NCBI GenBank assembly: GCA_016787295.1
Contig: JAEUUX010000294.1
Coordinates: forward strand, 1-37,965
From: Chitinophagales bacterium
Lineage (GTDB): Bacteria; Bacteroidota; Bacteroidia; Chitinophagales; UBA2359
DNA length: 37,965 bases
Direction: 5' to 3'
Shown here: positions 1,443-33,558 of the stretch, piece by piece
How positions within the stretch are numbered: the stretch's first letter is position 1
Layout: every line of letters begins with the position of its first letter
Notes under the pieces: model-generated
What the model was told of the DNA's origin: nothing
The model's database searches: none
Seen by the model: the letters and a program-made list of their open reading frames with translations, nothing else
Program-made: the position numbers and the translations under genes

Positions 1443-1481
1443 AAAAAAGCTTCGCAGGTTTGTGACCTGCGAAGCTTTTTT
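1443..1481. terminator. Strong bidirectional terminator between convergent genes
   Basis: Perfect 17-bp arms (1443-1459 and 1465-1481) enclose a 5-base loop. The stem has an A6 stretch on the left and T6 on the right, so a U-tract follows the hairpin in both reading directions. It lies between the 3' ends of the plus-strand gene at 605 and the minus-strand propeller gene, where a two-way terminator is expected. Confidence 0.85.
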
Positions 1482-1506: not shown

Positions 1507-3996
1507 TTATTCCACTGTTTGCTGCACTGTCACCGTCCCCACTGTGCCGTTGTTCCACTGCACCGAAATTTGGTTCGTGCCTTGTCCGCTCACAATAACT
1601 CCACCCACAACACTCCACACATAAGTACTGCCTGCAATAGACGTTACCGAATAGGTTTGGACACTATTGTTACAAGAGGCAGCATTACCACTAATCATCG
1701 GCGTAGGTGCCACACAACTTGTTCCGATTTTCATGCCATTGCCAAAACTCGTCACCCAAATTTCTTCGGTGCTGCTATAGGGATTAAAAAACACTCTTTC
1801 GGGTTGTCGGAAAACATATTCAGGTAGTTGTGCAAAGGTAGGTGTCGTAGCATTCAGGTTACTCGTATGCCACAAGCCTTCTATTTCGGTGGTGCAATAC
1901 ATTTCGTTGGGGTTGTTGGGGTTGATGGTACATGACTCTACGCGGTCGCTGTTCCAAATGCGCACCCACGACAGCCCTTTGTCGGTTGTTTTGTACAAAC
2001 CGCCCAAACCATTGGGTGCGCCTCCCCAACCGCTAAAAACGCAAGCGTACCAAGTGCTTTGGGTGGCATCGTTTGGCGCAACAATTACATCTTTTGTCCA
2101 ATAGTACATACCTGTGTGGCTTCGGTCTGCCCATGTTCCAGCGGCGGCATTGTACAAAAACACGCCCGAACTTGCCGTAAAAGCAGGGTCGCGATGCCCC
2201 GAATAAGACACAAGCAAATCGCCATTGTTCAGTACCACAATATTAAAAGGGTGTCCTTCGGTGCGTGGCGGATTGGATAGTTTTGTCCAAGTAGAAGCCG
2301 CACCCAAATTGATGTTGTTGCTCACCCAAATTCCCCCGATAGCAGCATTGCTATTGACCACACTGGCATACAAACGGTTGGCATTGGTGGGGTCGGTGGC
2401 TACCCAGCACACAATTTCGCTAAAATCGTGTAGTATTTGCCAAGTAGTGCCGTTGTCCGTGCTGTATTTTATGGCTCCTGTATTGCCTGCTGCATCTAAT
2501 TGTGCATCGGCTAATCGGGTGCTTTGGTAAAGGTCATGCACCGATGCGGTAGCTACATATAAGGTATTGTTAGCAATGTTTTTTACCACCCTATACGAAG
2601 TATTTTCTGCCAATCCGCTATAATTATAGCTCCAAGACGCACCAGCATCGGTGCTTTTTATGCCGCTTATATCCGAAAAACAAGCCCAAAGCGTATTGGC
2701 ATCAGCCCAAAAGACTTGCCAAGAAGTGGTATTTTCCATACCTACACTTCGGTAGGTGTCGGCGAGGTTGATAAGCGTATTAGGGGCGTGTTGGTCGGCG
2801 GTATTGCAATATTTTTGTTCCCAAGTAGTGCCGCCGTTCGCGGTGCTGTGTATATAGCCCCAATCGGTCAATACAGCTTTGTTGCTGTTGTTGGCAGCCA
2901 CATCTAAGCCAAAGAAACTCTCTACCCAGCCCCAATTGTTGTGTCCGCCTTGTCCGGCGTTTCCTGTGGCGATATTTTGGTTATTGGATGTCAAAAAAAC
3001 ATTGCTCCAAGTGCTGCCCGCATTGCTCGTTTTTTTGCAATAAGGTCCCGCGCCGTTGCTGCCGCCTGCTATATACACCGTGTTAAGGTCGTTTTGTGCC
3101 ATGCCCAAAAAGATAGGAAATTCGTTGGCAAAATTAATGCCCGCCGATTTGGATTGCCAAGCCGTTGCACCAATATCCAAGCTATAAATACCGTTGGCAT
3201 GTCCCCAATAATCGTTGGGGTGAATACCCGCCCAAATGTCATCATTCACCGCCGTAAGGGCAAATAAACGCGTAAGTCCGCCCGCTTTTGCACCCGAAAA
3301 GCCATAGATGGTATTACCTATGGGCAGTCCCGTAGCAGTTGACAAGGCAAAAGTAGTGCCGCCATTGACCGATTGCAATAGACCTACGCTTGTGCCGATA
3401 TAGATATTGCTTCCGTCCCAAAATGCGCCTGCTATATGTAAGCCGCCGCCCTCAGCAGTAGTATATTTGAGGGAAAAAGAATTGCCACCATCGTTTGAAA
3501 AGTATAGGCTGAAATAATCTGTAAGCAGTAGCTGATTAGCATTGTTTGGATTAGCCAAAAAATAAAAAGCATCGCCAAAAGTAGGGTCATTTGCTAATGA
3601 TGACCATGTTTGCCCGCCGTCGTTGCTCACCACGGGGCGATGTCCGCCACTTGCCGCATCAATATGCAGGGTATAGCAGGTATTGGGATTATTGGTAAAA
3701 TATACCTTTGACCTTGGACCAGCAAAGAGTTCCACAAAAGAAACTTGGTTGTAATTAGCCCCAAAATCTGTTGTATGGAATAGTTGCGACATATCACAAG
3801 ACATAAAATACTCGTTATCGTTTTGGGGATTGATAGCAGGGCTAAACAGCGCACCGCCACCACCCACACCGCGACTTTGCCAAGCAGTAGGCTGTGCTGA
3901 TACGATGCCTGTAGCAACAAAAATAGCAATAGTACTAAAAAAAGAAAGCGATAGGTAATGCCCAAATTTAAGGGCAATTAAGTCGATTGTTTTCAT
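1507..3996 (-). CDS. Secreted Asp-box beta-propeller protein (GH74/sialidase-like) with C-terminal PKD-like module
   Basis: The product is 829 residues. A signal peptide spans residues 1 to about 35 (hydrophobic FFSTIAIFVATGIVSA before QP). The body is built of Asp-box/BNR repeats, for example SNDGGNSF, STDAGASW, STDNGTTW and TTDKGLSW, spaced as in two-domain propellers of GH74 xyloglucanases, sialidases and Vps10-like proteins. The N-terminal GVGGGGALFSPAINP followed by a C-D-M-S turn resembles the opening blade of GH74-type proteins. I cannot identify catalytic acids with certainty, so enzyme activity is inference. Residues about 760-829 form the PKD-like module shared with the next four upstream genes, and the protein stops directly after it. 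It is the last gene of the minus-strand set, 108 bases after its neighbour, and ends against the hairpin at 1443. Confidence 0.85.
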   Translation of the reverse strand: MKTIDLIALKFGHYLSLSFFSTIAIFVATGIVSAQPTAWQSRGVGGGGALFSPAINPQNDNEYFMSCDMSQLFHTTDFGANYNQVSFVELFAGPRSKVYFTNNPNTCYTLHIDAASGGHRPVVSNDGGQTWSSLANDPTFGDAFYFLANPNNANQLLLTDYFSLYFSNDGGNSFSLKYTTAEGGGLHIAGAFWDGSNIYIGTSVGLLQSVNGGTTFALSTATGLPIGNTIYGFSGAKAGGLTRLFALTAVNDDIWAGIHPNDYWGHANGIYSLDIGATAWQSKSAGINFANEFPIFLGMAQNDLNTVYIAGGSNGAGPYCKKTSNAGSTWSNVFLTSNNQNIATGNAGQGGHNNWGWVESFFGLDVAANNSNKAVLTDWGYIHSTANGGTTWEQKYCNTADQHAPNTLINLADTYRSVGMENTTSWQVFWADANTLWACFSDISGIKSTDAGASWSYNYSGLAENTSYRVVKNIANNTLYVATASVHDLYQSTRLADAQLDAAGNTGAIKYSTDNGTTWQILHDFSEIVCWVATDPTNANRLYASVVNSNAAIGGIWVSNNINLGAASTWTKLSNPPRTEGHPFNIVVLNNGDLLVSYSGHRDPAFTASSGVFLYNAAAGTWADRSHTGMYYWTKDVIVAPNDATQSTWYACVFSGWGGAPNGLGGLYKTTDKGLSWVRIWNSDRVESCTINPNNPNEMYCTTEIEGLWHTSNLNATTPTFAQLPEYVFRQPERVFFNPYSSTEEIWVTSFGNGMKIGTSCVAPTPMISGNAASCNNSVQTYSVTSIAGSTYVWSVVGGVIVSGQGTNQISVQWNNGTVGTVTVQQTVE

Positions 3997-4104
3997 AATG
4001 GATAAGCGGGATGAGGAAAAGGTGAGATGTTGAGCTATTTTTATGCGTTGATGTAATGAATATGGTGATGCTGAAGCCTGAAGTTTTAGTAAAACCTATT
4101 TTTA

Positions 4105-6735
4105 TTATGGTGTTGTTTGTTGCACTGTTACCGTCCCCACCGTGCCATTAGTCCACTGCACCACGATTTGGTTTGTGCTTTGCCCGCTAAGAATTGTGCC
4201 GCCTGTGACTGTCCAAGCGTAGGTGCTACCTGCTATGGGTGTTACAGAATAGGTTTGTGTAACATTAAGGCAGGTATTGAAATTACCTGAAATGACAGGG
4301 TGTATGATGCAGAATTGTAAAACACCGCTCACAGTACTTGTATAACTACCTGTTGGCGAAGCAGCAATGCTAATGCTACTGCCATTGTCGGTAACGTTGT
4401 AGTTGGTATTGGGCAACATGCCGCAAAGGGTATGAGTAGTTTGCCCATTGTCGGTATAATTGTAGGTAGTGTTACTAATAGGTGTGGGTGTTTGCCCACT
4501 TTGTTGGTTAAACAAGGCAATATAGTGGCTATTATCTGCCAAAACGATGCTTGCTCCCGTCATTTTGTTGTCGTTTGTAGTCATATTGGTGGTATTCATA
4601 TCGGGCAATGTGAGGTTGCCTGCTGTGAAAACAGTTAAGAAAGGGTGTTCCAAAACCGTATTGTCATTGTGGCGAACAGCTACGCGCCAAGTCGGTGAAT
4701 TGGCATCTTGTCCATCATAATAAGCCGTATTGTCGGGATTGTTGCTTTCATCTACTAAGGTAATAGCGGCATTTTGAGGCAATAATGTGTGTAGCCTCAA
4801 TTTGGAATTTCGGTAGATGGCAGTCACGCGATTGCCGTTGAGGGTGGGTGTAGCGGGCGTATGCCAGCGCAATTCTTTGATGTATTGACCCGCAGGATTG
4901 GTGGAGTTGGCGGCTTTTACTTGGTCAAAAACTAAGAAAACATTGGCTTTGGGCAAATACAAAAGACTGCGATAGAAGTAGCGCAATTTTCGGTTGTTCC
5001 ATTGTGTTGAATCGTAATTGCTGTAATAAGCAGAGCTTAAGTCGCTGCGAATATAGGAGAAATCATCGGTTTGTTCTGCCGCCACCACTTCGTCTTTTCC
5101 CCAAACCGATTGACCGCCTACATAACTACTGCCGCTATACATATAATCGCCATAGTCGTGAAAAAATAGGGTATTGCAAAAAGCCGAATTAGTGGCATAG
5201 ACATTGTTGCCTACCAAACCGCCGCAATTTTCGCCGGGCGAGGATTTGAAAATGCTTGCCTCTATTAGCATAAAATCGCTGTTTCGTTTTAGGGCAATAT
5301 GTCCTGTTTGGTTGTGTTCGTGTCCTTCATAGACCGAAGCACCCATTTTTGCCGATGCCCATGTAGCAGCAGTATCCCAACTGTTGCGCATAATAAAGTA
5401 GGGCAAGGGCAAATCGTTGTGGTTAGCTTCTAAATAGGAATTGGGAAAACCACTATAATACAAGGGTTCGTTCATGGGTGCGGAGGGGCGTGTTAGGTCT
5501 TCAAAATAGAAACGTTCCCATGCTTCGTCGGGAAACAGAAATCCTGTTGTATAGAGGCATTCATTGACAGGTGGTTGTACAAAATTGTAGCGCAAATGTT
5601 GTGCGCCTGCTCCTTCGGTTGTGCCTGCCAACAGGTAAGCTAAACGTGTGGTGAGATATAAGGGTGCAAATGCGCCATAGCTACCGCCATAATCCGAAAA
5701 GAAATCAATTTCGCTGCGGTTGGGGTGAAGGGAATGCTTTTGGGCTTTGAGCAATTCTATCAACCAAGTTTGATAGGTACTAAACAAGTTTTCGTTGGCA
5801 GCCGTTTGTCGCATCTGCATATAGTCCAATACACGCCCCAAAGCAGCACCATAAGCCCAGCCTTCTACATAAAAACCGCCTTTGCAAGGCGCACCTGTGA
5901 TGTCGGTAGGGTTGTTATAGGTTTCGGTAGAAAGGATATTTTTATAGCCTCCCAAAAAAGTTTGTGTAAAATGACTTTTGGTCGTATCGCTACCAAGATT
6001 GCTATATACTGTTCCATCAAACCTATTATCTGCCCAGTTTATCAATTCTTCGGCGCGGCTATTGCTGCCATAAGAGGCATAACCCATAAAACCTATGCCC
6101 ACAAAATGCCCACTAAAATAGTTGTTGCCTGCTCTATTGTTGGTTTCATATCCATTTTGGCGAATAGCGTCGTAATAGTGGTTTATCAAATTGACCAATT
6201 GTGTGCGGCGCGTGCTGCCCAATTCGTCGTAACACCAATCAAAAATAACTGCTACGGCACGGCACACAAACCGAGAGGGATAGTAACTATCTAGGCGCAC
6301 GGGGCGAATGGTGTCGCTACCCGACATAAAAAAGTTGTTTTGCGCTGCCAAAATACTATCTGCCAATTGCAGCAGTTTGTTGGAATATATATCTGGTTGA
6401 TTGCCTGTGGCATTGCCTTTGGTCATTTGGTGCGCCATTCCCAACGCAAAGGCTGCATCGTACCAACCTCCGCCTTGGTAGGAGTAGCAAATTTGGTCGC
6501 TTAGGTCTAAATAATAGGTGTTTTCGTTCCAAGACAAAACGGGATACGCCGCCAAAGCATCGGCACGCGCTTTGAGGGCTAACCAAGAGGCTTCGTTGCT
6601 GTTTTTTTTGACCAACAATTGATTTTTGATGCTGTTGTTGAGCAATACACGTGGATGTGTGCTAATAATTTGGGTGTAGCAAAAGTTGTAGCAGATTAGC
6701 CACAACAAGCTGACGAAAAATACTTTTTTGGGCAT
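4105..6735 (-). CDS. Secreted heparinase II/III-like polysaccharide lyase with C-terminal PKD-like module
   Basis: I chose the start at 6735 (MPKKVFFVSLLWLICYNFCYTQ) because it gives a clean signal peptide. An in-frame ATG at 6786 would add 17 residues and is possible; residue numbers here use that longer form. Residues about 45-400 form an alpha/alpha-toroid typical of heparinase II/III and alginate-lyase-like families (HPRVLL opening, WYDAAFALGMAHQ, VIFDWCYDEL, GFYVEGWAYGAALGR). Residues about 460-780 are the beta-sandwich half with MRNSW and the YEGHEHNQTGH motif (His 489, 491, 496), which usually holds the metal or catalytic histidines. The last 65 residues are the shared PKD-like module. 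The likely role is beta-elimination of an acidic polysaccharide outside the cell, substrate unknown. Spacing to neighbours is about 110 bases on each side. Confidence 0.85.
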   Translation of the reverse strand: MPKKVFFVSLLWLICYNFCYTQIISTHPRVLLNNSIKNQLLVKKNSNEASWLALKARADALAAYPVLSWNENTYYLDLSDQICYSYQGGGWYDAAFALGMAHQMTKGNATGNQPDIYSNKLLQLADSILAAQNNFFMSGSDTIRPVRLDSYYPSRFVCRAVAVIFDWCYDELGSTRRTQLVNLINHYYDAIRQNGYETNNRAGNNYFSGHFVGIGFMGYASYGSNSRAEELINWADNRFDGTVYSNLGSDTTKSHFTQTFLGGYKNILSTETYNNPTDITGAPCKGGFYVEGWAYGAALGRVLDYMQMRQTAANENLFSTYQTWLIELLKAQKHSLHPNRSEIDFFSDYGGSYGAFAPLYLTTRLAYLLAGTTEGAGAQHLRYNFVQPPVNECLYTTGFLFPDEAWERFYFEDLTRPSAPMNEPLYYSGFPNSYLEANHNDLPLPYFIMRNSWDTAATWASAKMGASVYEGHEHNQTGHIALKRNSDFMLIEASIFKSSPGENCGGLVGNNVYATNSAFCNTLFFHDYGDYMYSGSSYVGGQSVWGKDEVVAAEQTDDFSYIRSDLSSAYYSNYDSTQWNNRKLRYFYRSLLYLPKANVFLVFDQVKAANSTNPAGQYIKELRWHTPATPTLNGNRVTAIYRNSKLRLHTLLPQNAAITLVDESNNPDNTAYYDGQDANSPTWRVAVRHNDNTVLEHPFLTVFTAGNLTLPDMNTTNMTTNDNKMTGASIVLADNSHYIALFNQQSGQTPTPISNTTYNYTDNGQTTHTLCGMLPNTNYNVTDNGSSISIAASPTGSYTSTVSGVLQFCIIHPVISGNFNTCLNVTQTYSVTPIAGSTYAWTVTGGTILSGQSTNQIVVQWTNGTVGTVTVQQTTP

Positions 6736-6851
6736 GATAGGAAATTTAAGTGAGTTTAGAAAATCGCTAATGGCTGTTTTCTCCATAGCGTAAAAAAAAA
6801 TGTGCCTTTGTGGAGATGAAAATCTGCCACGAATGCATAGGATAATATTGG

Positions 6852-8405
6852 TTAGGGCGTGGTTTGGCTTAGCGAAACTGTTCCCACTGTTCCATTATTC
6901 CATTGTACCGAAATTTGGTTTGTGCCTTGTCCGCTAAGGATTGTACCGCCTGTAACTGTCCAAGCGTAGGTGCTGCCCGCAATAGCCTGCGTGCTGTAGG
7001 TATAGGACTGGTTGGCACAAACATTGGCAGATGAAGCACCACCTGCTCCGCTTTGAGCAATTATCGGCATAGGTCTTGGTTTTACAGTTACCCAAAGTTT
7101 GGCATAACCTCCTGAACCATAATTATTGACCCCGCGCACTATGATTTCGCCCGATGTGGCAGTTGTCCCAAAATTGACCGTAATGCTATTGGTATTGCTG
7201 CTTCCTGTTGCTCCCGAAGGCAAAGTCCAACTGTAAGAGGTGGCATTTGGAATGGGCGGCACCGAATATACAACACCATTTGTAGCCGAACAAAGGCTAC
7301 TTAACCCGCTTATTGCATCGCTACAACCCGGAATATGGTTTTTGACAACACGATAGAGTAAAAAAGTTACTGCGTCCATGCCCGAAGGATAGGAATTGCT
7401 CAAACCACATACCGATACATTCAAACAAGAATCTTGTATCATTTTGCTGCGATAGCCCCAAGTAGTACCACCATGCCCCCAAAAAGTTTTGCCCTGAACA
7501 GTTTCGCGCGATAGCCCCAACCCATATTGATATGTTGCACTGTTGGTGCCAATAAAATTGGTTATTTCGGCTAATGATGCAGGACTAAGCAACTGCCCTT
7601 CAAACAAAGCATGATACCATTGCACCATTTCTGACGAAGTAGCAAACATGGCACCTGCACAGCCGCCAGCAGTGTTCAAACCCACGCGGGAGGTGTCGTT
7701 ATAATCCACATTGTTCCACCAACGATGGGCAATAATGCCGTTTTCGGGTTCTTCCACGTCGTAAAAAGTGCTGTCCATATTTAAGGGTGTGAGTATTCGG
7801 TCGCGGATAAGTTGCGATATGTGAAAACCTGTGGCATTTTGGGCAATCATACCCGCCAAAATGTAGTTGATATTGGAATAACCAAAATTAGTACCTGTAG
7901 CAAACAAGGGCGCTCCTACCCAACTCATTACTTCATTAGGCGTAAATACGCGCGTTGGATTTGCCATAATAGTATCCATCCAAGGCGACACAAACAAGGG
8001 GTCGGATATGCCACTTCTGTGATTGAGTAGTTGCCTAATTGTAATATTGGGATTGACGTTGGGATAAGTAGGCAGCCATTGGCTTAAATGATCGTCTAAG
8101 CTCAATACATTTTCTTCGTCTAACATTAGCATGATGGTTGCCACAAACAGTTTGGTATTGCTGGCAATGCCCATGCGCATATTGCTCGTAATAGGTTGTC
8201 CGCTATATGAATTACCCACCACACCTGTCCAAATGCCTTGTCCTGGTATATAGACCGATGCCTCCATACCTTTGATATTGGAAATTTGTCCAACATAGGT
8301 ATTGAGGGTGTCTTGCAGCATGGTTGCCAAGGCAGCATTGAATGTTTGTGCTTGGAGGATTTGGAGAGAAAGGAAACAATAAAGGAAAATGGCAATCTTT
8401 TTCAT
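6852..8405 (-). CDS. Secreted serine hydrolase, beta-lactamase/penicillin-binding-protein fold, with two PKD-like modules
   Basis: The product is 517 residues with a signal peptide at residues 1-19 (ends LQAQ). The catalytic domain (about 25-355) carries S82-N-T-K85 (SxxK nucleophile and base), Y176-S-N178 (YxN) and an HGGTTWGY segment near residue 315 in the place of the KTG/HxG motif. This is the class C beta-lactamase-like esterase/peptidase family (beta-lactamase, D-Ala-D-Ala peptidase and EstB relatives). LLNHRSGISD is the usual family signature. Two Ig/PKD-like modules follow (about 360-440 and 445-517), and the last is the tail shared with four neighbours. Substrate cannot be read from sequence. 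Antibiotic resistance should not be assumed, because most members of this fold in Bacteroidota are peptidases or esterases. Confidence 0.88.
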   Translation of the reverse strand: MKKIAIFLYCFLSLQILQAQTFNAALATMLQDTLNTYVGQISNIKGMEASVYIPGQGIWTGVVGNSYSGQPITSNMRMGIASNTKLFVATIMLMLDEENVLSLDDHLSQWLPTYPNVNPNITIRQLLNHRSGISDPLFVSPWMDTIMANPTRVFTPNEVMSWVGAPLFATGTNFGYSNINYILAGMIAQNATGFHISQLIRDRILTPLNMDSTFYDVEEPENGIIAHRWWNNVDYNDTSRVGLNTAGGCAGAMFATSSEMVQWYHALFEGQLLSPASLAEITNFIGTNSATYQYGLGLSRETVQGKTFWGHGGTTWGYRSKMIQDSCLNVSVCGLSNSYPSGMDAVTFLLYRVVKNHIPGCSDAISGLSSLCSATNGVVYSVPPIPNATSYSWTLPSGATGSSNTNSITVNFGTTATSGEIIVRGVNNYGSGGYAKLWVTVKPRPMPIIAQSGAGGASSANVCANQSYTYSTQAIAGSTYAWTVTGGTILSGQGTNQISVQWNNGTVGTVSLSQTTP

Positions 8406-8531
8406 AAAAATAGGTGAGCAGGCTTGTTGTAAGCAAAGACTATTTTAATTGAATGAACAAGAAATGATATAACGAGTTGAGCATTAGTTATTTATGTAAT
8501 TGGATAGTTTGAGGTAATGAAACAACAATTT

Positions 8532-10199
8532 TTATGGAGCAACTTGTTCGACTGTTACCGTTCCTGTTGCTCCATTATTCCACTGTACCGAAACTTGATT
8601 AGAGCCTTGTCCATTTAGGATTGTGCCACCTGTAACTGTCCAAGTGTAGGTAACACCACAACTATCTACGGGAGGGGTTGTGTAGCTAACAACGGTTCCA
8701 CCACAAGTTACAGTAGTACCGCTTATGCTTACAGGACAAATGCTTTCGCCTGTCACAACAAATTGTCCCATCATACCACCATCTTCGTGGTCTAAGAAGT
8801 GACAATGATACATATAAGGCATCATATCATCAGCAAAATGGTCGAACTTGGCAACAAACGAAACACTTTCGTTTCGGGGGAGATATAGCACATCTTTCCA
8901 ACCCGATTCGTAGTTTTTGACCGAAGCAGGATTATTGTTGCGGGCTACTATCTTAAATTGCACATCATGTATATGAAAAGCATGTCCAAAAACATTATTA
9001 TTGGTAATGTTCCAACGTTCGATGGCATCTAAATTGACGGTCTGATTGATTACCTCCATGTCATAAGGTGCATTGTCAAATGTAAAAGCAGTGCCGGGAG
9101 GCGCACCACCTGTGACATTGATTTGGCGCGTATTGGTAGCATCGGCGGCTGTCCAATAAGTATTGTTTACCAAAGTTGTGGGCAAAGTGGTTATGGGATT
9201 GCTTGTGGTGGCTGCTACGTTAATATGTAGCACAGAAAAATTAGTATTGTTGAGCAAGCTGCCAAATTGTCCTGTTGTGTTGGGTTCGCCACCGGGGAAG
9301 CCAAGCGGTTGCCCTGCATTATATGCCATCAAATCGAGACTTGTTCCTACAGGGTCATTGCCCAAATTGACCAATAACTCAACCCGCTCGCCTGTCACTA
9401 AAATCATTCTTGTGACCGGCACCGGTGCATTGAGCAAACCACCATCATTACCAATTACATAAAAAGTTCTGTTATCACTAAATCCCAAGTTATAGGCACG
9501 CTCGACTTCGGCGTTCAAAATTCTAAGGCGTACATACTGTTTAGGCAAACTAACTTGGGCGTTGGGTGTGCCGTTGGTGAGCATATAATCGCCATACACC
9601 GAGTTGGTGGTAACAAATTGGTTATTGGTAGTGTAGCGTCGGCTTGTCAATACGACGGGAATGTCATCAATGCCGTATTTTCGGGGCAAAGGCAAAGCGG
9701 CTTCTATTGGGTCGCGGACGATAATCAACCCACCTGCTCCCATGACCACTTGTTCGGTTGTTTTGGTGTGCAAATGTGGATGATACCAATAAGTGGCAGC
9801 ATTGTTTCGTATCTTAAAAAAAGGCGACCAAACTTCATTTGGGGCGATTGGTTGGTGAGGACCTCCGTCGGTCATGGCAGGGATATGGAAACCATGCCAA
9901 TGCGTAGTGGTGGTGTCGGGCAGATTATTGGTAAGGTTAATTTGCACACATTCGTCTTTGTTCATAATAAGTGTAGGTCCCCAAAAACTTGCCGTATTGT
10001 AGGCATACGTATTGGTGGCTTGTCCCGAAGAAACAAGTTGCTTGGTGGCTGTGTGCAAATTAAGGTTAAAGGTTGTACCCGTCAGGGTGTCAGGTATCCA
10101 AAGGGTATTGTATTGTGCAAACACAAGGTTGTTGAGTAATATAACACATAGAAACACGATAGTGATGTTTGTCGTCAATAATTTGATGTTCATTTGCAT
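8532..10199 (-). CDS. Secreted multicopper oxidase with C-terminal PKD-like module
   Basis: The product is 555 residues with a signal peptide at 1-28 (ends LVFAQ). All four copper motifs are present: H100-W-H102-G, H140-P-H142-L-H, H-x-F-H-I-H near residue 405, and Y-H-C-H-F-L-D-H-E-D-x-G-M-M near 470 supplying the type 1 Cys, His and Met ligands. Domain order is three cupredoxin folds, as in CotA, CueO and bilirubin-oxidase-like enzymes, which couple one-electron substrate oxidation to four-electron reduction of O2. The axial Met argues against a high-potential fungal-type laccase. After about residue 485 comes the shared PKD-like module, then the stop. It is 24 bases downstream of the beta-helix gene, so very likely cotranscribed with it. 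The natural substrate (phenolic, metal or pigment) is unknown. Confidence 0.92.
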   Translation of the reverse strand: MQMNIKLLTTNITIVFLCVILLNNLVFAQYNTLWIPDTLTGTTFNLNLHTATKQLVSSGQATNTYAYNTASFWGPTLIMNKDECVQINLTNNLPDTTTTHWHGFHIPAMTDGGPHQPIAPNEVWSPFFKIRNNAATYWYHPHLHTKTTEQVVMGAGGLIIVRDPIEAALPLPRKYGIDDIPVVLTSRRYTTNNQFVTTNSVYGDYMLTNGTPNAQVSLPKQYVRLRILNAEVERAYNLGFSDNRTFYVIGNDGGLLNAPVPVTRMILVTGERVELLVNLGNDPVGTSLDLMAYNAGQPLGFPGGEPNTTGQFGSLLNNTNFSVLHINVAATTSNPITTLPTTLVNNTYWTAADATNTRQINVTGGAPPGTAFTFDNAPYDMEVINQTVNLDAIERWNITNNNVFGHAFHIHDVQFKIVARNNNPASVKNYESGWKDVLYLPRNESVSFVAKFDHFADDMMPYMYHCHFLDHEDGGMMGQFVVTGESICPVSISGTTVTCGGTVVSYTTPPVDSCGVTYTWTVTGGTILNGQGSNQVSVQWNNGATGTVTVEQVAP

Positions 10200-10223
10200 T
10201 TGGATAAAAAATAAAATGGTTAT

Positions 10224-11588
10224 TTATGGTATAATTTGGATTATGCTAACGGTTCCTGTTGCGCCATTATTCCACTGTACCGAAATTTGGTTTGTGCTTT
10301 GTCCGCTTACAATGGTACCGTCTGTAACTGTCCAAGCGTAGGTGCTACCTGCTATGGGAGAGACGGAATAGGTGCTGGTTTGCCCCAAACAAGAGGAATT
10401 TAAACCATTAATAGTGGGTGTAAAAGTGCAGTTTTCGTCTACCCATTCATAGGCACCAATGTCTATGGCTGTACCAACAATGGTACGAGCTACATGGCTT
10501 TGAAGATGAACATATTGCTGTTGAGGCAACAGATTAATACCTGCATACGTACCTGCTTCGACACCTGCATCGATGGCGGGTGAGGTGCTTTGGAGGTTAT
10601 AGTCAAAAGTAGCAGCATCGGCGAGTTGTGCGTTGGCTATGCTGGTCATGCGGCGGTTGCCGAGGCTGTCTATGGCTAATGGTGTCCCATTGAGGTAGGT
10701 GCCGTTGCCCAATACAAGGTTGTTATAGAGTTTAAACAAAGTCGTATTGTTGGCAACAAAAAAGAAAATCCCCGATGGGCGATTATTGACGATGGTGTTG
10801 TTGACCACAACAAAATCTTTGATGGCGTTGCTCAAGCCTTCTGCTCCGTATTCTATGATAGTGCTGTTTTCGGAATTAGCACCTTGTTCGATAAGGTTGC
10901 CGAGCAAAATGGTTTCGCCACCATTGGGAACATCAACGGTATAACTGCCATTGCCGTTTTCTTCTGTAATTCGGTTATATAGGATATAATTGTGGCGAGC
11001 GCGGGTCTTGAGGGTGTGTCCTACAACCATATCATGGGAATAGTTGTAGCGAAAAATCAGCGTATCGACATGGTTGATATACACATTATGGCTATAACCG
11101 TCGCCATAACCGTTGGCTGCAAATTCGGAAGTCTCGATGGTGATGGTGCTGGGTGTGTTGTCACCTGCCAAAATTCCCATTTCGTTGTGATGAAAATAGC
11201 AATGGCGAATCAATACATTTTTGCCTTCTTGACGAATGCCTGCTCCATTGTTGTCGGGAACGGTGCAGTTCAGGAATTCAATATTTTCGATGATACAATT
11301 GTTGCCTTTGATCACCCAAATTGCTTTTCCTTCGGCATTGTTGCCATTGGCATCTAAGCGAGCATAACCGTTGCCGACTCCTTTGAGGTAAAGATTGTTG
11401 GCATACCAACGCGCCACATCGCCCAGATAGGTAGCAGCATCGATTTCAACAGTATCGCCGTCTGCTACCAAATTGGCAACAGCACTTGGCGCGGTGTATA
11501 GGCGTGTGGGACCTACTTGGTAGGTGGTGGCGTGGAGGTAGTGTGTCAGACATAAGAGCAACAAAAGAAGCTCTATTTTCTTTGTCAT
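10224..11588 (-). CDS. Secreted right-handed parallel beta-helix protein with C-terminal PKD-like module
   Basis: The product is 454 residues with a signal peptide at 1-20 (ends HYLHA). Residues about 25-375 show parallel beta-helix coils: repeated N-x-I/V-I/L-x-N turns such as NNCIIENIEF, NVLIRHCYF, DTLIFRYNY and HNYILYNRI. The opening, with YQVGP and A-D-G-D-T-V-E-I-D-A, is typical of pectate-lyase-like/NosD-like secreted helices. An H-x-L-K-T-R-A-R-H stretch about residue 195 contains basic residues that could be catalytic in a lyase, but I cannot assign a polysaccharide lyase family. The last 65 residues are the PKD-like tail shared with the next four genes. It lies 24 bases downstream of the YciI-like gene and 24 bases upstream of the oxidase gene, indicating one transcript. 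Confidence 0.85.
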   Translation of the reverse strand: MTKKIELLLLLLCLTHYLHATTYQVGPTRLYTAPSAVANLVADGDTVEIDAATYLGDVARWYANNLYLKGVGNGYARLDANGNNAEGKAIWVIKGNNCIIENIEFLNCTVPDNNGAGIRQEGKNVLIRHCYFHHNEMGILAGDNTPSTITIETSEFAANGYGDGYSHNVYINHVDTLIFRYNYSHDMVVGHTLKTRARHNYILYNRITEENGNGSYTVDVPNGGETILLGNLIEQGANSENSTIIEYGAEGLSNAIKDFVVVNNTIVNNRPSGIFFFVANNTTLFKLYNNLVLGNGTYLNGTPLAIDSLGNRRMTSIANAQLADAATFDYNLQSTSPAIDAGVEAGTYAGINLLPQQQYVHLQSHVARTIVGTAIDIGAYEWVDENCTFTPTINGLNSSCLGQTSTYSVSPIAGSTYAWTVTDGTIVSGQSTNQISVQWNNGATGTVSIIQIIP

Positions 11589-15174: not shown

Positions 15175-18100
15175 ATGACTCATATCCGCCAACTTTTTCA
15201 ATACATCAAAGACCTATACAATACCTCTAATGCGGTGTTTCAGTTTGAGAACGAACCACACAATGTCAAACAAAAAAACGCCCAATATTTTATATTGGAC
15301 GAATGGTTAGACCTCTATACAATGGCACAAAAAGAGGATAATGCTAATATACAACTGCAAATAGAACGTCCCGACGAATCGCTACTTACCCTCAAAAGGA
15401 TAGTTATACCCGAATTGTCGGTGCCGCACGATTTGATTGGCTGGACAGAAACTATTGTGCCTTTTGGCAATTTGCTGCCCGTTTTACAACCTATATCAGA
15501 GCGAAAAAATATTATCAATTTTGGTGATGATACACAACGACCCTTGGTGTGGTTGCTCTGGAAAGCCGAAAACCTCCACAATCCTGATGTCACACCTTTG
15601 CCTACTTTGGCTAATTGGGTGGTTTGGAAACCCAACCCAAACTTGCCTTCGGAGGAAAACCAAACCGAAGACTCCGCATCAACCGACGAAATAACACCAG
15701 AAACTAATGACAATATATTAACCGAAACTATAGCCACTCACACAGAATCGTCCGAAACGGAAGAAGAACGCAACGAAATTATCAACAACAACACAACAAA
15801 CATCGATGGCGAAGTCGAAGAAAAACAAGAAACAGTAGAAACTATCGAAATTGACATCATCGATACAACCATAGAAACAGACAGCGAAACGAAGAATTTT
15901 GTCATTACTCTGCCACCACCGCCACCGATTTTGGGAACATGGGAAATCATTCCGCAACGCATCGAAACAGAACGATTCGATGAAAATGGTAGCCGCGTGC
16001 GCACTTTTGAGCGCTACAAAAATACTTTTTCTGAATACTACCTTAAATGGTGGACAAGTATTAGAATCAACCAAATCTATGAACAACTACACACACTTTA
16101 TTATGAACTAAAATCGCGCGACAACAAAGCCTTGTATCTTTCTTTTGGCTTGCTCAACGGGCGGATTGCCGATGAAGTGTATCGCAATTTTATTTTTCAT
16201 GTGCCTTTGCGAATGAGTGTGCGTGCGCAAGTTCTCAAAATTGATTTTGATACTTTTGCTAACCGAATTTTTGCCGAACAGTATTTTACCACTTTGTTTG
16301 AAGAACATTTTAAGAATCAGCAAGCCGATACGCGCCAAAATAGCGTTTTGGCGGCTGTTGATGCTTTTAATAACCAAACATGGCAATTTTATGGCACACC
16401 CGAATTTGTAGAACAAAACTTTGTGCAAACTGCCGAACAAATGTTATCGGTGTTTGCCAACTTACAAACGCGCTTTTTCAAGACCGAAGAAGCCGACAAC
16501 ATTCAGTTTGATTATACTTTTTATGCTACCCATGATGCCAAAGATATTACTTTCAGCTTTTCACCCATTTTGCAAACAAAAATCGTTGAATCGCAAATTT
16601 TGATTTCGAAAGATGCAGCTAAAATTGTGCAACAAATCAACGAATTGGAGCAAAACAACGAATTGCACCGCATTCCCGATTTTTTCAAAAAACTGTTTGA
16701 CCTGCCCTCCGAAGCCGAGTTCACCACCGATTTGCAGCGATTTAAGACCGAAAACGAAGCCGATTTTTTATTTCCTCTGCCCTACAATGAGGAACAGTTA
16801 GCCATTGCCAACCGACTATTGTTGCAAGATGCCGTAACAGTGAAAGGACCTCCCGGCACCGGCAAAAGCCACACTATTGCCAATCTTATCAGCCATTTTG
16901 TGGCAGAAGGAAAGAATATATTGGTGGTGTCGCACAACTCCAAAGCTTTATCGGTGGTCAAAGACAAACTACCCACCGAACTGCAACAATTGACCATCTC
17001 TTTGGGTAATGATACCAAAGGTAATGAACTCCTAAAAACATCGGTCAACACCATCATCGCGCACCTCTCCAAAAACTATACACTCCAACAAATCCACGAC
17101 CACGAACAACAGCGCCAACGCCTACAGTTGCAATACGATGGTTTATTGGAGCGAATCTACGAGACTGTTGGCAACAACCACCAAGAACTTACCACTTGGT
17201 CTCCTATTTCACAAACCATCGAAACGCACAGCGCCACATATTGGGCATCTATTTGGGCGCAAAAACCTGCCACTAATTGGCAAATCAATGACCTATTAGC
17301 AACAGACATCACGCTTGATGATTTAGCCAACGAAATATACGAACTTAGTCAGTTGGCAGGCGGCTTGACAACAGAAGACCTCAATCTGGCACGATACACT
17401 TTCCTGCCCGACGAAGAACTGCCATCTGTTGACTTGTTTCAGCAAATTGTTGAGCAAATCAACCTCACAGCCCCACTCATTGGCTCCAGCGCATCAGCAT
17501 TTTTGTATCGAAAAAACTTTGCTAACATTGCCACACATCAAGGAGACTTTAACCTTTTGTGGCATAGCTTTCTGGCACTACACGACCAAATACAGCTATA
17601 TCCTTTTTTAGTACATGTATTTAATCATCGACAGTTTAACCAGTTGCAGTTCGAAAAAATGCTGGAAGATACTCATAAACTGCGCGAGCATGTTTCAGCA
17701 ATGGACTATCAGCTACAGCCTTATGTTATCGAATTGAGTCATGTCATCAATGCTAATGCTGAAATCGCCTTGAGCAATTTGCGCGAGGTGATGAGCAAAT
17801 TTGATGTGAATGGACAACTAACTTTTTTCCAAAAAACATTTCTTACGCCCGAAGCACGCTCTTTTCTGACTTGTACTGTCAATGGGGTTAATTCCGAAAA
17901 TCTAAACAATCTCAAAATTATAGAGTTGCATTTAGAAAGGAGAAAAATGCAACAACAAATTAAAGCTTTGGTGGGCAACTACCTAAAGCCATTCTATATC
18001 CATGTCACCAACCTCGACGAATGGTTAGAGCAATTGGATTTGATGACCCAATATATACAAATCATTACTCAAATCAACACTTATTTGATACCTTTGCAAA

Positions 18101-20097
18101 TCCCTCCACTGCGACACAACAACACGCTACCTACCCAAATCAAACTCATAGAACAACAACGTTTGGTCGGAGACTACCAACTTTTGCAACAACAACTCCA
18201 AGATTATGGCAGAAAAATCTGCCCGCCCAACGTCCAAGTTCACCCCATTGCCCACCAACTCAACACCACCATCACCAGCAAAAAGGTAGCAGACTACGAA
18301 AAAATATTGCTATCTTACAAAATGCTGCGCGACCAACAACCCAAAATTCTCGCCATACAAGAACTCCTAAACCGCATTGCACTTCGCGCACCGCATACGT
18401 CGACCTATCTAAAACAGCAAATTTTCGGTGGCAAAACCTTGCCCGAAATGTCTTACAATAGCCTCAAAACTCAATTGGCGTATGCCCAAATCCGCACTTT
18501 TCTAGAAGCGGTTAGCCCACGCACTTTAGGTATTGACAAACTTTTTGACCAACTACAAAGCCTCAAAAACACCATTGCGCGCCAAACTGTCTGGCTCATT
18601 AGTCACAAAACTTGGTACAACAAAAACCAACAAATCACCGAAACCGCCAAATCGGCACTATCGGCATGGTTAGCAAGTTTGGTAGCCATTGGCAAGGGAC
18701 ACGGTCGCAACACCGTGCAAAACATGAACGCTGCTATCCAAAACATGCAGGTTGCCAAATCAGTCGTTCCTGTTTGGATTATGCCACAGCAAACCGCCAT
18801 CAACTTTTTTCCTGATGCCACACCCGCACAATTTGACTTGTTAATTGTCGACGAGGCAAGCCAGTGCGACATCAGCATGTTAAACCTTATTTTTAGGGCA
18901 AAAAAAACCATTATTGTCGGCGATGAAAACCAAACCTCAGTAACAGCTAACCACAAAATATTTGATTTTGACAAAGTAAACCGCCTTTTAGACACCCATC
19001 TCTATCATCATCCCTTCAAAACGGCTTTCAATGTCAACAACAACAATAGCAGCATTTACACCCTAAGTAGCATATTGTATCCCAACATCATCACCCTCAC
19101 CGAACATTTTCGTTGCCTGCCCGAAATCATTCATTGGTCAAACCAATACATCTACAACGGTTTGATACAGCCGCTCCGAACAGCCACCCAAAAACCCTTT
19201 GGCACATCACTGTCCATAGAGTATCATCAAGCCGAAATAGACGATTTGGTGCGCATGGTATTGGTCGAGCGTTGTGTCGAAATCATCGAGTCATATATCG
19301 AAAAATTTGAAGGAAAACGCCTCACACGCCTCCCAAGCATAGGTATTTTGTGCTTAGATTCATCAAACCAAAAACATCAACAAGCCCTCATCCGAGCCAT
19401 TGCACGCAACGAAAAAATCAAACAACACGAAGATGCCCTGTCTTTGTTGGTTGGCACTTCGCGCGAATTTCAGGGCGACGAGCGTGATGTCATGTTGCTC
19501 ACCCTCACCGTCATGCCCTACCTCACCGAAGAAGGCGAAATGCGACCACCACGCGGCTTGTTTTCCGAAGAATTTATGCGCATCTACAACGTGGCAGCCA
19601 GTCGTGCCAAAGACCGTTGCCTAATACTCCACAGCATTCCGCCCGACCTTATTGGCTTAATTTCGCCCGACTGCTATCGCCGCAAATTGTTGGACTACTA
19701 TACCCTCTACCAATTCGCACAAACAGACACTCCCGAACGACAATTGCCCGAACTATTGCTCGACAGCAATCCCGAATTGGGCGAAATGGGACAAACCGTC
19801 TGCCAATTTCTATGCGACAAAGGTTATGGCAAATACCTTAACCCACAATACCAAGTTGGCAACCAATTCATCGATTTCGCCTTGCTACTGCCCAATACCA
19901 AATTGGCAATTGTGTGCGATGGCTACGAACACCAACACGATTCCGCTATCATACAGCAAAATATAGCCAATCAATTACTATTAGAACGTGCAGGTTGGCG
20001 TTTTTTCCGCCTACAAAGCATGAATTGGTGGTACAACCACGCTGCTGTTTCCCAAAACCTCTTGGCTTGGATTAAACGGTGCGAGATGTTTGGCTAA
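15175..20097 (+). CDS. Large SF1 (Upf1-like) helicase with C-terminal Vsr/DUF559-like nuclease domain; candidate defence protein
   Basis: The product is 1640 residues. Residues 1-160 form an N-terminal domain, then a low-complexity acidic Glu/Thr/Ser stretch (about 160-245) ending in a poly-Pro turn. SF1 motifs follow: Walker A GPPGTGKSHT (558-567), Ia VVSHNSKAL, a long helical insertion (about 650-1150), motif II VDEASQCD (Asp1226), III IVGDENQTS, IV EHFRC, V GTSREFQGDERD (1427-1438) and VI NVAASRAKDR. Residues about 1530-1640 resemble the Vsr-like endonuclease fold (NPQYQVGNQFIDFALLLP, then AIVCDGYEHQ, then LLLERAGWRFFRLQS). This order matches helicase-Vsr proteins such as the DUF4011-helicase-Vsr (Hhe) type reported in antiphage screens; I infer, not prove, a similar role. 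It starts 78 bases after the ABC gene. Val1580 sits where many relatives have a catalytic Glu. Confidence 0.88.
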   Translation: MTHIRQLFQYIKDLYNTSNAVFQFENEPHNVKQKNAQYFILDEWLDLYTMAQKEDNANIQLQIERPDESLLTLKRIVIPELSVPHDLIGWTETIVPFGNLLPVLQPISERKNIINFGDDTQRPLVWLLWKAENLHNPDVTPLPTLANWVVWKPNPNLPSEENQTEDSASTDEITPETNDNILTETIATHTESSETEEERNEIINNNTTNIDGEVEEKQETVETIEIDIIDTTIETDSETKNFVITLPPPPPILGTWEIIPQRIETERFDENGSRVRTFERYKNTFSEYYLKWWTSIRINQIYEQLHTLYYELKSRDNKALYLSFGLLNGRIADEVYRNFIFHVPLRMSVRAQVLKIDFDTFANRIFAEQYFTTLFEEHFKNQQADTRQNSVLAAVDAFNNQTWQFYGTPEFVEQNFVQTAEQMLSVFANLQTRFFKTEEADNIQFDYTFYATHDAKDITFSFSPILQTKIVESQILISKDAAKIVQQINELEQNNELHRIPDFFKKLFDLPSEAEFTTDLQRFKTENEADFLFPLPYNEEQLAIANRLLLQDAVTVKGPPGTGKSHTIANLISHFVAEGKNILVVSHNSKALSVVKDKLPTELQQLTISLGNDTKGNELLKTSVNTIIAHLSKNYTLQQIHDHEQQRQRLQLQYDGLLERIYETVGNNHQELTTWSPISQTIETHSATYWASIWAQKPATNWQINDLLATDITLDDLANEIYELSQLAGGLTTEDLNLARYTFLPDEELPSVDLFQQIVEQINLTAPLIGSSASAFLYRKNFANIATHQGDFNLLWHSFLALHDQIQLYPFLVHVFNHRQFNQLQFEKMLEDTHKLREHVSAMDYQLQPYVIELSHVINANAEIALSNLREVMSKFDVNGQLTFFQKTFLTPEARSFLTCTVNGVNSENLNNLKIIELHLERRKMQQQIKALVGNYLKPFYIHVTNLDEWLEQLDLMTQYIQIITQINTYLIPLQIPPLRHNNTLPTQIKLIEQQRLVGDYQLLQQQLQDYGRKICPPNVQVHPIAHQLNTTITSKKVADYEKILLSYKMLRDQQPKILAIQELLNRIALRAPHTSTYLKQQIFGGKTLPEMSYNSLKTQLAYAQIRTFLEAVSPRTLGIDKLFDQLQSLKNTIARQTVWLISHKTWYNKNQQITETAKSALSAWLASLVAIGKGHGRNTVQNMNAAIQNMQVAKSVVPVWIMPQQTAINFFPDATPAQFDLLIVDEASQCDISMLNLIFRAKKTIIVGDENQTSVTANHKIFDFDKVNRLLDTHLYHHPFKTAFNVNNNNSSIYTLSSILYPNIITLTEHFRCLPEIIHWSNQYIYNGLIQPLRTATQKPFGTSLSIEYHQAEIDDLVRMVLVERCVEIIESYIEKFEGKRLTRLPSIGILCLDSSNQKHQQALIRAIARNEKIKQHEDALSLLVGTSREFQGDERDVMLLTLTVMPYLTEEGEMRPPRGLFSEEFMRIYNVAASRAKDRCLILHSIPPDLIGLISPDCYRRKLLDYYTLYQFAQTDTPERQLPELLLDSNPELGEMGQTVCQFLCDKGYGKYLNPQYQVGNQFIDFALLLPNTKLAIVCDGYEHQHDSAIIQQNIANQLLLERAGWRFFRLQSMNWWYNHAAVSQNLLAWIKRCEMFG

Positions 20098-24533: not shown

Positions 24534-25790
24534 ATGTTAACAGAAATAAAACTTGAAAACTGGAAGAGTTTTCACAATGCCACACTTTACATAGACCCTC
24601 TTACTGTATTGACAGGTATGAATGCCAGCGGAAAATCGAATATATTAGATGCTTTGTTGTTTTTGCAACGAAGCATCTCAAGCCGTGATATCTATACTGC
24701 TATACAAGGAGACAGAGATAACAATGGCATAAGAGGGGGCATAGAAAATATTGAACTATGGGGACAGCAACAAATGCCACGCCTATCAGTATCTGTAGAT
24801 TCAGAAGAGGGCATAACGTATCGATACCTATTGTACTTGACCATTGAGAGAAATAACAATGGTCACCATGAGGCACGAATATATGAAGAAACTTTATCGG
24901 AAACAAGAGATGATAGTAACTTTACCATATTTTCCGTAGTTTCCTCTATCAACAATGCTTTAGTGAGAGTGTCAGTAGCTAAACCCAAAGGAAATAATCC
25001 TAACGAATATCACGATGCCACACAAACATACGCCTACAAATGGACGATGCCCACACAAGAAACCATCTTAAAACAACTTAGTCAAAGAACAGAATTGTCC
25101 GATCGTGTGTCAAAAGCAGTAAAAACTGTAGCCAATACTTTGCAAAACGTTTTTATTTTAGACCCAATTCCTACTAATATGCGCCAATATGTTAGAGTAT
25201 CGCCCTATTTAACTGCTGATGGTGCTAATGCAGCAGGGGTTATTGCGAATTTGGGTAACGAAGAAAAAATTGCAACGGAACAATTACTAACACACTATGC
25301 ACAAAAATTGCCTGAACAAGAACTACAAAACATAACAGTAGGTTTAGTTGGTTTGGGTAATAATGATGCTATGTTTTATTGTGATGAAAATTTTGTTACA
25401 AACGCTTCTCAACGCATAGATGCCCGCAGTATGTCTGATGGTACTTTGCGTTTTTTAGCTATTCTAACAGCTATCTTAACGCGCCCCAAAGGCAGTTTGT
25501 TGGTAGTAGAAGAAATTGACAATGGTATTCACCCTTCACGCGCCAAGTTGTTATTACAAATTTTATATACAGAAGCCACTCAAAGACAGATAGATATTTT
25601 AGTAACCACCCATAACGTAGCTTTCTTAAACGAATTAACAGAACACTATTTACCGTTTGTAATGTATGTACACCGAAATCGTGAAAACGGATATAGTGAA
25701 ATTACCCCCATAAACGAACTAGACAACCTACCTTTTTTACTTGGGCAAGGACCTTTGGGAGCTATTGTAACACATCAAAAACTAAGATAG
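24534..25790 (+). CDS. AAA/ABC-type (OLD/RecF-like) ATPase of two-gene cassette
   Basis: The product is 418 residues. It opens with the strand I-K-L-E-N-W-K-S-F, then Walker A GMNASGKSN (28-36). It carries the ABC-signature-like SMSDGTLRFLAIL near residue 302, Walker B LLVVEEIDNGIHPSR near 323 with the catalytic Glu, and a VTTHN switch near 357. This is the SMC/RecF/OLD-like branch of single-chain ATPases (COG4637-like). It ends soon after the H-switch and carries no TOPRIM or other nuclease domain, unlike OLD proteins. The adjoining PIN-like gene, whose ribosome-binding site overlaps this stop codon, may supply that function in trans. The arrangement parallels ATPase-effector defence pairs such as PARIS or Septu, but I do not recognise it as one of them. 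Arg codon use (9 AGA of 23) differs from the amylase gene upstream. Confidence 0.88.
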   Translation: MLTEIKLENWKSFHNATLYIDPLTVLTGMNASGKSNILDALLFLQRSISSRDIYTAIQGDRDNNGIRGGIENIELWGQQQMPRLSVSVDSEEGITYRYLLYLTIERNNNGHHEARIYEETLSETRDDSNFTIFSVVSSINNALVRVSVAKPKGNNPNEYHDATQTYAYKWTMPTQETILKQLSQRTELSDRVSKAVKTVANTLQNVFILDPIPTNMRQYVRVSPYLTADGANAAGVIANLGNEEKIATEQLLTHYAQKLPEQELQNITVGLVGLGNNDAMFYCDENFVTNASQRIDARSMSDGTLRFLAILTAILTRPKGSLLVVEEIDNGIHPSRAKLLLQILYTEATQRQIDILVTTHNVAFLNELTEHYLPFVMYVHRNRENGYSEITPINELDNLPFLLGQGPLGAIVTHQKLR

Positions 25791-25794
25791 GAGG
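25789..25794 (+). promoter_or_regulatory. Canonical Shine-Dalgarno overlapping the ATPase stop codon
   Basis: AGGAGG overlaps the TAG stop of the ATPase gene (25788-25790) and stands 8 bases before the PIN-like ATG at 25803. Perfect SD sequences are rare in Bacteroidota. This one fixes the start and suggests coupled translation. Confidence 0.8.
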
Positions 25795-25802
25795 ACATTA
25801 AT

Positions 25803-26378
25803 ATGCCCAAACAAACAAACCGACAAACAAATACCGACATGCCCAAACCTAAATTTATTGTCATAGACACCTCGATTTGTTGCTTGTATTTTGATATTCA
25901 ATATATGAATACACACGAAACAGAAACTCCTGCTACTGTAAGAGCTGCTATTGAGCGCGAAACAGTAGCAGGAGCAAAAATGATTTTGCCTTTTGTGGTT
26001 ATCATCGAAACCGGTAATCACATTGCTCATATTGCTGACGGGAATATCCGCCGCATTAAAGTAGAGGAATTTACAACTTTTGTTACAGACTGTTTAGAGG
26101 GGAACAGACCTTGGATGCCATTTAATGGGCAAGATAGGTTATACACTTTGGACAAAATGAAGGAACTATTAGAAACATGGAAGGGACGAGCCATACCTAA
26201 TAAAGATTCTATAGGAGACGTTAGTATTACAGCAATAGCTGAATTTTATGCTTGTGCAATGTCAAACTATGATGTACTAATTTACACTCTTGATGAAGGT
26301 TTAAGAGCTTATAGCCCTTCTGAAAGGGCTAATGAACTATTAAACGTACCTGCTCCGCCAAGACGCAAAAAAAATTGA
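25803..26378 (+). CDS. PIN-like nuclease, partner of the cassette ATPase
   Basis: The product is 191 residues, with the start fixed by AGGAGG eight bases upstream; an internal ATG at 25839 is also possible. I do not recognise a named family, but the acidic pattern fits a PIN-domain ribonuclease. Asp22 lies in FIVIDTSI, Glu69 in FVVIIETGN, Asp139 in SIGDVSITAIAEFYA, and Asp164 in VLIYTLDEGLRAY, in the D-E-D-D order and strand context of VapC-type enzymes. It is longer than a typical VapC, with an insertion between the second and third acids (about 80-130) that could contact the ATPase. No antitoxin-like gene is present, so the ATPase is the likely controller. The TGA stop overlaps the first bases of the right 60-bp repeat. 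Nuclease activity is inferred. Confidence 0.78.
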   Translation: MPKQTNRQTNTDMPKPKFIVIDTSICCLYFDIQYMNTHETETPATVRAAIERETVAGAKMILPFVVIIETGNHIAHIADGNIRRIKVEEFTTFVTDCLEGNRPWMPFNGQDRLYTLDKMKELLETWKGRAIPNKDSIGDVSITAIAEFYACAMSNYDVLIYTLDEGLRAYSPSERANELLNVPAPPRRKKN

Positions 26379-29978: not shown

Positions 29979-29989
29979 ACTACCTGAGT

Positions 29990-30157
29990 GGGTTGTGAGT
30001 TCTAACGTTTGGGTTGCGAGTTCTAACGTTTGGGTTTGGAGTTCTAACGTTTGGGTTTGGAGTTCTAACGTTTGGGTTGCGAGTTCTAACATTTGGGTTG
30101 TGAGTTCTAATGTTTGGGTTTGGAGTTCTAACGTTTGGGTTTGGAGTTCTATTGTTT
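29990..30157. repeat. 21-bp tandem array 2 (8 units)
   Basis: There are eight units of the form GGGTTGCGAGTTCTAACGTTT, variable only at a few positions (TGCG/TGTG/TTGG, AACG/AACA/AATG/ATTG). It fills much of the 528-base gap between the GNAT gene's 3' end and bamA. Units share an AACGTT palindrome. The minus-strand frame reads as heptads (ELQTQTL) but I see no sign that it is a gene. Confidence 0.93.
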
Positions 30158-30159
30158 GA

Positions 30160-33271: not shown

Positions 33272-33523
33272 AGGTTGCGAGTTCTATCGTTTGGGTTGCG
33301 AGTTCTATCGTTTAGGTTGCGAGTTCTAACGTTTGGGTTGTGAGTTCTAACGTTTGGGTTGTGAGTTCTATCGTTTGGGTTGTGAGTTCTAACGTTTGGG
33401 TTGTGAGTTCTATCGTTTGGGTTGCGAGTTCTATCGTTTGGGTTGCGAGTTCTAACGTTTGGGTTGTGAGTTCTAACGTTTGGGCTTGGAGTTCTAACGT
33501 TTGGGTTGCGAGTTCTAACGTTT
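33272..33523. repeat. 21-bp tandem array 3 (12 units)
   Basis: There are twelve full units of the array 2 type (consensus GGGTTGYGAGTTCTAWCGTTT), with a partial thirteenth. The array lies between the 3' end of the minus-strand gene at 33603 and the repeat-rich desert upstream of the DUF4340 gene. There are no spacers between units, so it is a minisatellite and not a CRISPR. Confidence 0.93.
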
Positions 33524-33558
33524 GGGTTGCTGTTATGGTTGGTATTGTAATATAAATA

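Follow-up and report, generated by a model that had tools for sequence, protein, structure and literature searches.

The window, by which we mean the whole stretch of DNA analyzed here (37,965 nucleotides from a Chitinophagales bacterium, contig JAEUUX010000294.1 of assembly GCA_016787295.1), contains five contiguous open reading frames (ORFs) on the minus strand. The encoded proteins have different bodies and end in a shared PKD-like module. The genes and the features discussed below are:

1443..1481, no strand assigned: 18-pair inverted repeat followed by T, a probable terminator of the five-gene cluster (from the repeat sequence)
1507-3996, minus strand: ORF of 829 residues, body an Asp-box/Sortilin-type propeller
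1510..1716, minus strand: terminal clipped PKD_6 module of the propeller protein (PKD_6 42.4 bits; stop codon at 1507-1509)
4105-6786, minus strand: ORF of 893 residues, body heparinase-like with a weak HepB match
4108..4305, minus strand: terminal clipped PKD_6 module of the heparinase-like protein (PKD_6 profile 7-68 of 82; predicted structure)
4309..6786, minus strand: heparinase-like body used in the exchange test (homologue comparison)
6852-8405, minus strand: ORF of 517 residues, body a beta-lactamase-fold serine hydrolase
6855..7067, minus strand: terminal clipped PKD_6 module of the hydrolase (PKD_6 match)
7095..7319, minus strand: interior full-length PKD_6 copy in the same hydrolase (profile 6-80 of 82)
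7356..8405, minus strand: serine hydrolase body used in the exchange test (homologue comparison)
8532-10199, minus strand: ORF of 555 residues, body a CueO-like multicopper oxidase
8535..8741, minus strand: terminal clipped PKD_6 module of the multicopper oxidase (tail alone, E 7.6e-8)
8730..10199, minus strand: multicopper oxidase body used in the exchange test (homologue comparison)
10224-11588, minus strand: ORF of 454 residues with a choice-of-anchor Q match, which fits a beta-helix
10227..10424, minus strand: terminal clipped PKD_6 module of the beta-helix-type protein (PKD_6 profile 6-66 of 82)

All five modules match the Pfam family PKD_6 (PF19408) above the Pfam cut-off, with more than 25 bits each, in a genome-level profile search, and their coverage of the profile breaks off near position 66–69 of 82. 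The core shared by the family, these modules included, is TYxWTVTGGTIxSGQGTNxIxVQW. As an earlier note made from the sequence of this region had described, the five ORFs end in the shared module and the bodies are unrelated, with the stop codon 0–3 residues past the final strand (two or three in the note): a propeller, a heparinase-like protein, a hydrolase, an oxidase and a beta-helix, the last of which is consistent with the choice-of-anchor Q match. The note's statement that no sorting domain lies behind the module also holds, since none of the five proteins (0/5) matches the models for sorting domains of the type IX secretion system (T9SS) and no such domain is encoded in any frame in the 260 bases past the stops. 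Its description of the module as near-invariant was too strong, as identity to the first copy is 49–69%, or 60–86% over the last 43 residues. In the hydrolase (6852-8405), the interior full-length PKD_6 copy provides a within-protein contrast to the terminal clipped copy. The 18-pair hairpin and T tract follow the last gene, so the five-gene cluster may be a single transcription unit.

Several other features are present in the window. A two-gene pair at 24534-26378 (plus strand) matches the PADLOC candidate defense system PDC-M07 (A, an AAA ATPase, E 8.8e-132; B, E 3.1e-35), and a 1640-aa helicase with a C-terminal MTES_1575 nuclease domain at 15175-20097 (plus strand) resembles the candidate defense gene PDC-S37 (E 1.5e-42). 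The 816-aa protein encoded at 35434-37884 (plus strand) has a methylase-like NPPY motif but matches nothing in Pfam or PADLOC. Tandem repeats of 21 bp form three arrays, at 198-356, 29989-30158 and 33273-33530. The latter two are built from a related unit, with GAGTTCTAACGTT in common, and the first is located inside an ORF coding for NARAFE repeats.

A genome-wide collection of module-ending proteins, which the earlier note had proposed as a check, yielded at least 30 distinct proteins with the module 0–8 residues from the end, of which five are encoded in the window. The genome is 5.42 Mb in 296 contigs and 98% complete. Given this number and the PKD_6 matches of all five modules, the presence of the module at the end of the five window proteins is far beyond chance. 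The other bodies include GH9, a thermolysin-type M4 protease, lysyl oxidase, a MauG-type peroxidase, CotH, amine oxidase, a dioxygenase, an esterase, a phosphatase and three DUF1501 proteins. The intact proteins start with export-like segments, four of them Tat-like, as judged by eye and with a hydrophobicity heuristic, no trained predictor being used. One of the module-ending DUF1501 genes is damaged, with an internal TAA and an odd, lysine-rich module end (NKTKKFVKI), and looks like a decaying copy.

Canonical T9SS sorting domains of type A number at least 150 in the same genome (TIGR04183 matches), which also encodes one clear PorU sortase and PorV-family proteins. The PorV family shows no expansion compared with relatives, and no shuttle or PorP/SprF-like gene was noticed among the window ORFs beside the five module genes. 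None of the 28 modules scanned matches the T9SS sorting models of types A, B or C.

Homologues of these bodies often carry a different tail, and this exchange is the strongest evidence that bears on function. For the multicopper oxidase, 24 of the 29 homologues listed end in a type A-like domain, which starts directly after the residue at which the window protein switches to the module; four of these homologues are 64–66% identical to the window protein. As the oxidase homologues closest in sequence come from other families of the order, acquisition of the body followed by a change of tag is a possible history. A type A domain terminates the homologues of a module-ending DUF1501 body, which are about 55% identical and include sister-genus proteins. 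Type A or type A-like tails are also found on homologues of the serine hydrolase at ∼30–35% identity, while a sister-genus protein that is 80% identical keeps the module, and further orthologous pairs have the module on both sides. Two sister-genus homologues of the heparinase-like body have another, longer tail. Eight of the exchanged tails were scanned with the models and the rest were judged by eye; all eight match TIGR04183 above the cut-off, and the module matched nothing. Homologues that continue past the module into a sorting domain, which the earlier note had named as counter-evidence, were not found: the sorting domain is in place of the module, not behind it. The exchange on homologous bodies thus identifies the module as a replaceable terminal part in the sorting-domain slot. 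As read from these comparisons, it shows a shared slot and is not proof of shared machinery. These bodies do not strictly need a sorting domain, as some homologues lack a tail or have one of a third kind.

The third tail type was seen at seven loci. It consists of the C-terminal 200–390 residues, in which dockerin-like D-x-N-x-D-G repeats come after an HRNHL motif, and mostly ends in RY. The one tail of this type that was scanned has no Pfam or NCBIfam match, and it may be another unrecognized tag.

The terminal modules differ from interior PKD_6 domains in their extent. Terminal copies end near position 66–71 of the 82 positions of the Pfam profile, whereas many interior copies reach 75–82; the interior copies are about 14–18 residues longer and contain a second cysteine. 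When aligned to an 82-column HMM trained on interior copies, held-out interior copies end at a median of column 81, compared to 64 (maximum 66) for 83 terminal copies. Terminal copies stop at strand F and have no strand G. Two cysteines are present in 303 of 320 interior copies, one in the first segment and the other at or just after strand F. All 83 terminal copies keep the first of these, and in 70 of them no cysteine follows it. Since the cysteine counts come from an alignment built on terminal copies, the proper control for clipping is the interior-trained model, which gives the same answer. A cysteine 7–22 residues upstream occurs in 48 of the 83 terminal copies vs. 24 of 311 interior copies, suggesting that the first cysteine of many terminal copies may be re-paired with the linker. 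Lysine is found within the last 15 residues of 4 of the 83. Set against a complete PKD_6 domain, which reaches the end of the profile and has both cysteines, the terminal copies are incomplete. The terminal module is a distinct form of PKD_6, clipped at one residue, that lacks strand G and the partner cysteine, a feature missed by the earlier note.

The structure predicted by AlphaFold2 from an alignment of eight related modules (pLDDT 79.5, pTM 0.66) has six strands, the last of which is also the end of the chain. A prediction for the interior and terminal domains together, made without an alignment, was too poor for use (pLDDT 54). A search for solved homologues by sequence gave no convincing match (best E 0.014). 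A fold search returned middling matches to common folds (best Z 7.2), with no T9SS or type A domain among the matches listed, an absence that carries no weight against a relationship.

Two trivial sources of a short C terminus were also considered. A three-frame scan after the 83 stops rules out a hidden downstream sorting domain or readthrough. Assembly truncation is rejected because the stops are inside contigs, with intergenic DNA and then another gene behind each of the five window genes.

Outside this genome, terminal copies are found in a sister genus of the same family, where three genomes contain 26, 17 and 14 of them (57 in all). Among 54 named loci, terminal copies occur only in Sphingobacteriales bacterium TSM_CSM and Bacteroidetes bacterium UBA2322. 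A search of 395 genomes of the class was followed to the loci of its best-scoring matches, and outside this genome these contain no terminal copy, the copies being interior or lying at a locus edge. The terminal module is therefore restricted to one lineage among the genomes searched. That the module might be mostly interior, a second point of possible counter-evidence, is true of PKD_6 in general and false in this lineage. In other Bacteroidota, some PKD_6 copies are located 61–130 residues before the protein end, which leaves room for a type A tail.

Spread by copying or recombination, as first proposed from the window, has moderate support from two observations. In a tree built from 180 modules, 11 changes account for the terminal label, compared to 60 when labels are shuffled, so that terminal copies cluster; they may have a single origin, as far as a short alignment of little resolution can indicate. 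At four-fold sites of the five window copies, 91 of 176 comparisons (from pairs that are not independent) agree, vs. 51 expected from codon usage. This agreement fits copying between genes with unrelated bodies.

The idea of a terminal tag on unrelated bodies is thus well supported, with at least 30 proteins in this genome and 57 in the sister genus and the module in the type A slot. Since relatives carry a standard secretion tag in this slot, the module is probably an alternative sorting or anchoring tag. Our preferred explanation, to which we assign a probability of roughly 0.6, is that it serves this lineage specifically as an interchangeable C-terminal tag for sorting or anchoring, in place of the T9SS type A domain. 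The tag would be derived from an interior PKD_6 domain, which is Ig-like. The likely route of the module proteins would be across the inner membrane by Sec or Tat, after which the clipped C-terminal module would be recognized by outer-membrane export or surface-attachment machinery, most likely the T9SS or one of its carrier proteins. Type A domains themselves have an Ig-like fold, and the plastic pocket that they occupy recognizes them by shape, few of the contacts being conserved (PMC10994853), so a small Ig-like module in the same slot is a plausible further signal. As the chain stops after strand F, the groove for strand G is left open and the first cysteine is without its usual partner. 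The missing strand and unpartnered cysteine suggest that the fold could be completed in trans. A carrier or a surface partner may complete it, with anchoring as a possible result, or the open edge may itself be the recognition surface. T9SS dependence and the partner-strand mechanism are hypotheses drawn from sequence and predicted structure.

The open groove could also serve attachment rather than export. The module would then be a strand-acceptor docking domain that fixes proteins to a surface scaffold or the extracellular matrix, through a donor strand and/or a disulfide, with export depending on another route or signal. Docking through an open Ig groove is known from chaperone-usher pili. 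The loss of strand G and nearly always of its cysteine, the retention of the first cysteine in 83 of 83 copies, and the end of the predicted chain at the sixth strand are all in keeping with such a role. However, no partner was found, the upstream cysteine that is frequent in terminal copies could re-pair the first cysteine within the same protein, and the substitution for type A domains argues for a role in export as well. We consider attachment alone unlikely, though it is the alternative that fares best. Improbable, in our view, is a plain terminal adhesive or carbohydrate-binding PKD module without any sorting role, on proteins that remain in the periplasm or exit by some other path. PKD-like domains are widespread as accessory domains, and PKD_6 is an interior repeat elsewhere in the class, but this explanation accounts neither for the constant stop residue before strand G nor for the type A slot on several unrelated bodies. 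Decay of genes that once encoded PKD and type A domains, by nonsense mutation or assembly error, finds some room in the 61–130 residues that follow PKD_6 copies in other Bacteroidota, but is very improbable, as no sorting-domain motif occurs in any frame downstream of the 83 stops, extension to the end of the interior domain is possible in only 1, 5 and 1 of the 83 (three frames), and the terminal state is kept between genera on orthologues such as the 80% identical hydrolases.

If the module is indeed a sorting or anchoring tag, a more specific and distinctly tentative possibility is that type IX secretion or surface anchoring uses it as a signal of a fourth class. This signal would be an Ig-like domain short of one strand, which a dedicated carrier or scaffold would complete in trans through a donor strand, perhaps together with a disulfide. 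It would have arisen from a clipped interior PKD repeat and then spread by copying to dozens of unrelated proteins within a single lineage.

The tag explanation, if true, would have consequences for secretome predictions, in which such proteins are unrecognized cargo, at least 30 in this genome alone. The missing strand is a sharp structural prediction. Swapping sorting domains redirects cargo (PMC12618676), and homologues that carry in the same slot either a type A domain or a tag unrelated to it in sequence amount to a set of natural swap experiments. Only three kinds of T9SS sorting domains, the unlike tails of types A, B and C that one translocon reads, are described in a review (PMC10202324). 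Types B and C are a precedent for C-terminal domains that are unrelated in sequence and feed the same secretion system (PMC10202324). Our literature search found no report linking PKD-like domains to T9SS sorting, and none naming a type D sorting domain.

Compared to the known sorting domains, the module is unlike type B (TIGR04131/PF13585) and type C (NF033708, the ChiA type), as it matches neither TIGR04131 nor NF033708. Its clear sequence relationship is to the interior PKD_6 (PF19408) repeats of Bacteroidota, from which terminal copies differ in being clipped, in the loss of strand G and the second cysteine, and in their separate position on the tree. The module also differs from type A (TIGR04183/PF18962), being derived from PKD_6 and having no TIGR04183 match and no YPNP or C-terminal lysine motif. 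A near-invariant lysine close to the C terminus is typical of type A (PMC10994853). The absence of a type A motif, lysine in only 4/83 copies, six predicted strands (from the eight-row alignment) vs. seven in the type A Ig-like beta-sandwich, and the unexpanded PorV family are points against the tag explanation, as are the lack of a shuttle gene noticed beside the five window genes and the homologues with no tail or a third kind of tail. In other respects the module resembles type A: it is located at the extreme C terminus, is ∼65–100 residues long with a predicted beta-sandwich or Ig-like fold, and is found on many unrelated bodies with Sec- or Tat-like export segments (by the heuristic) in a T9SS-bearing genome, in the same slot on homologues.
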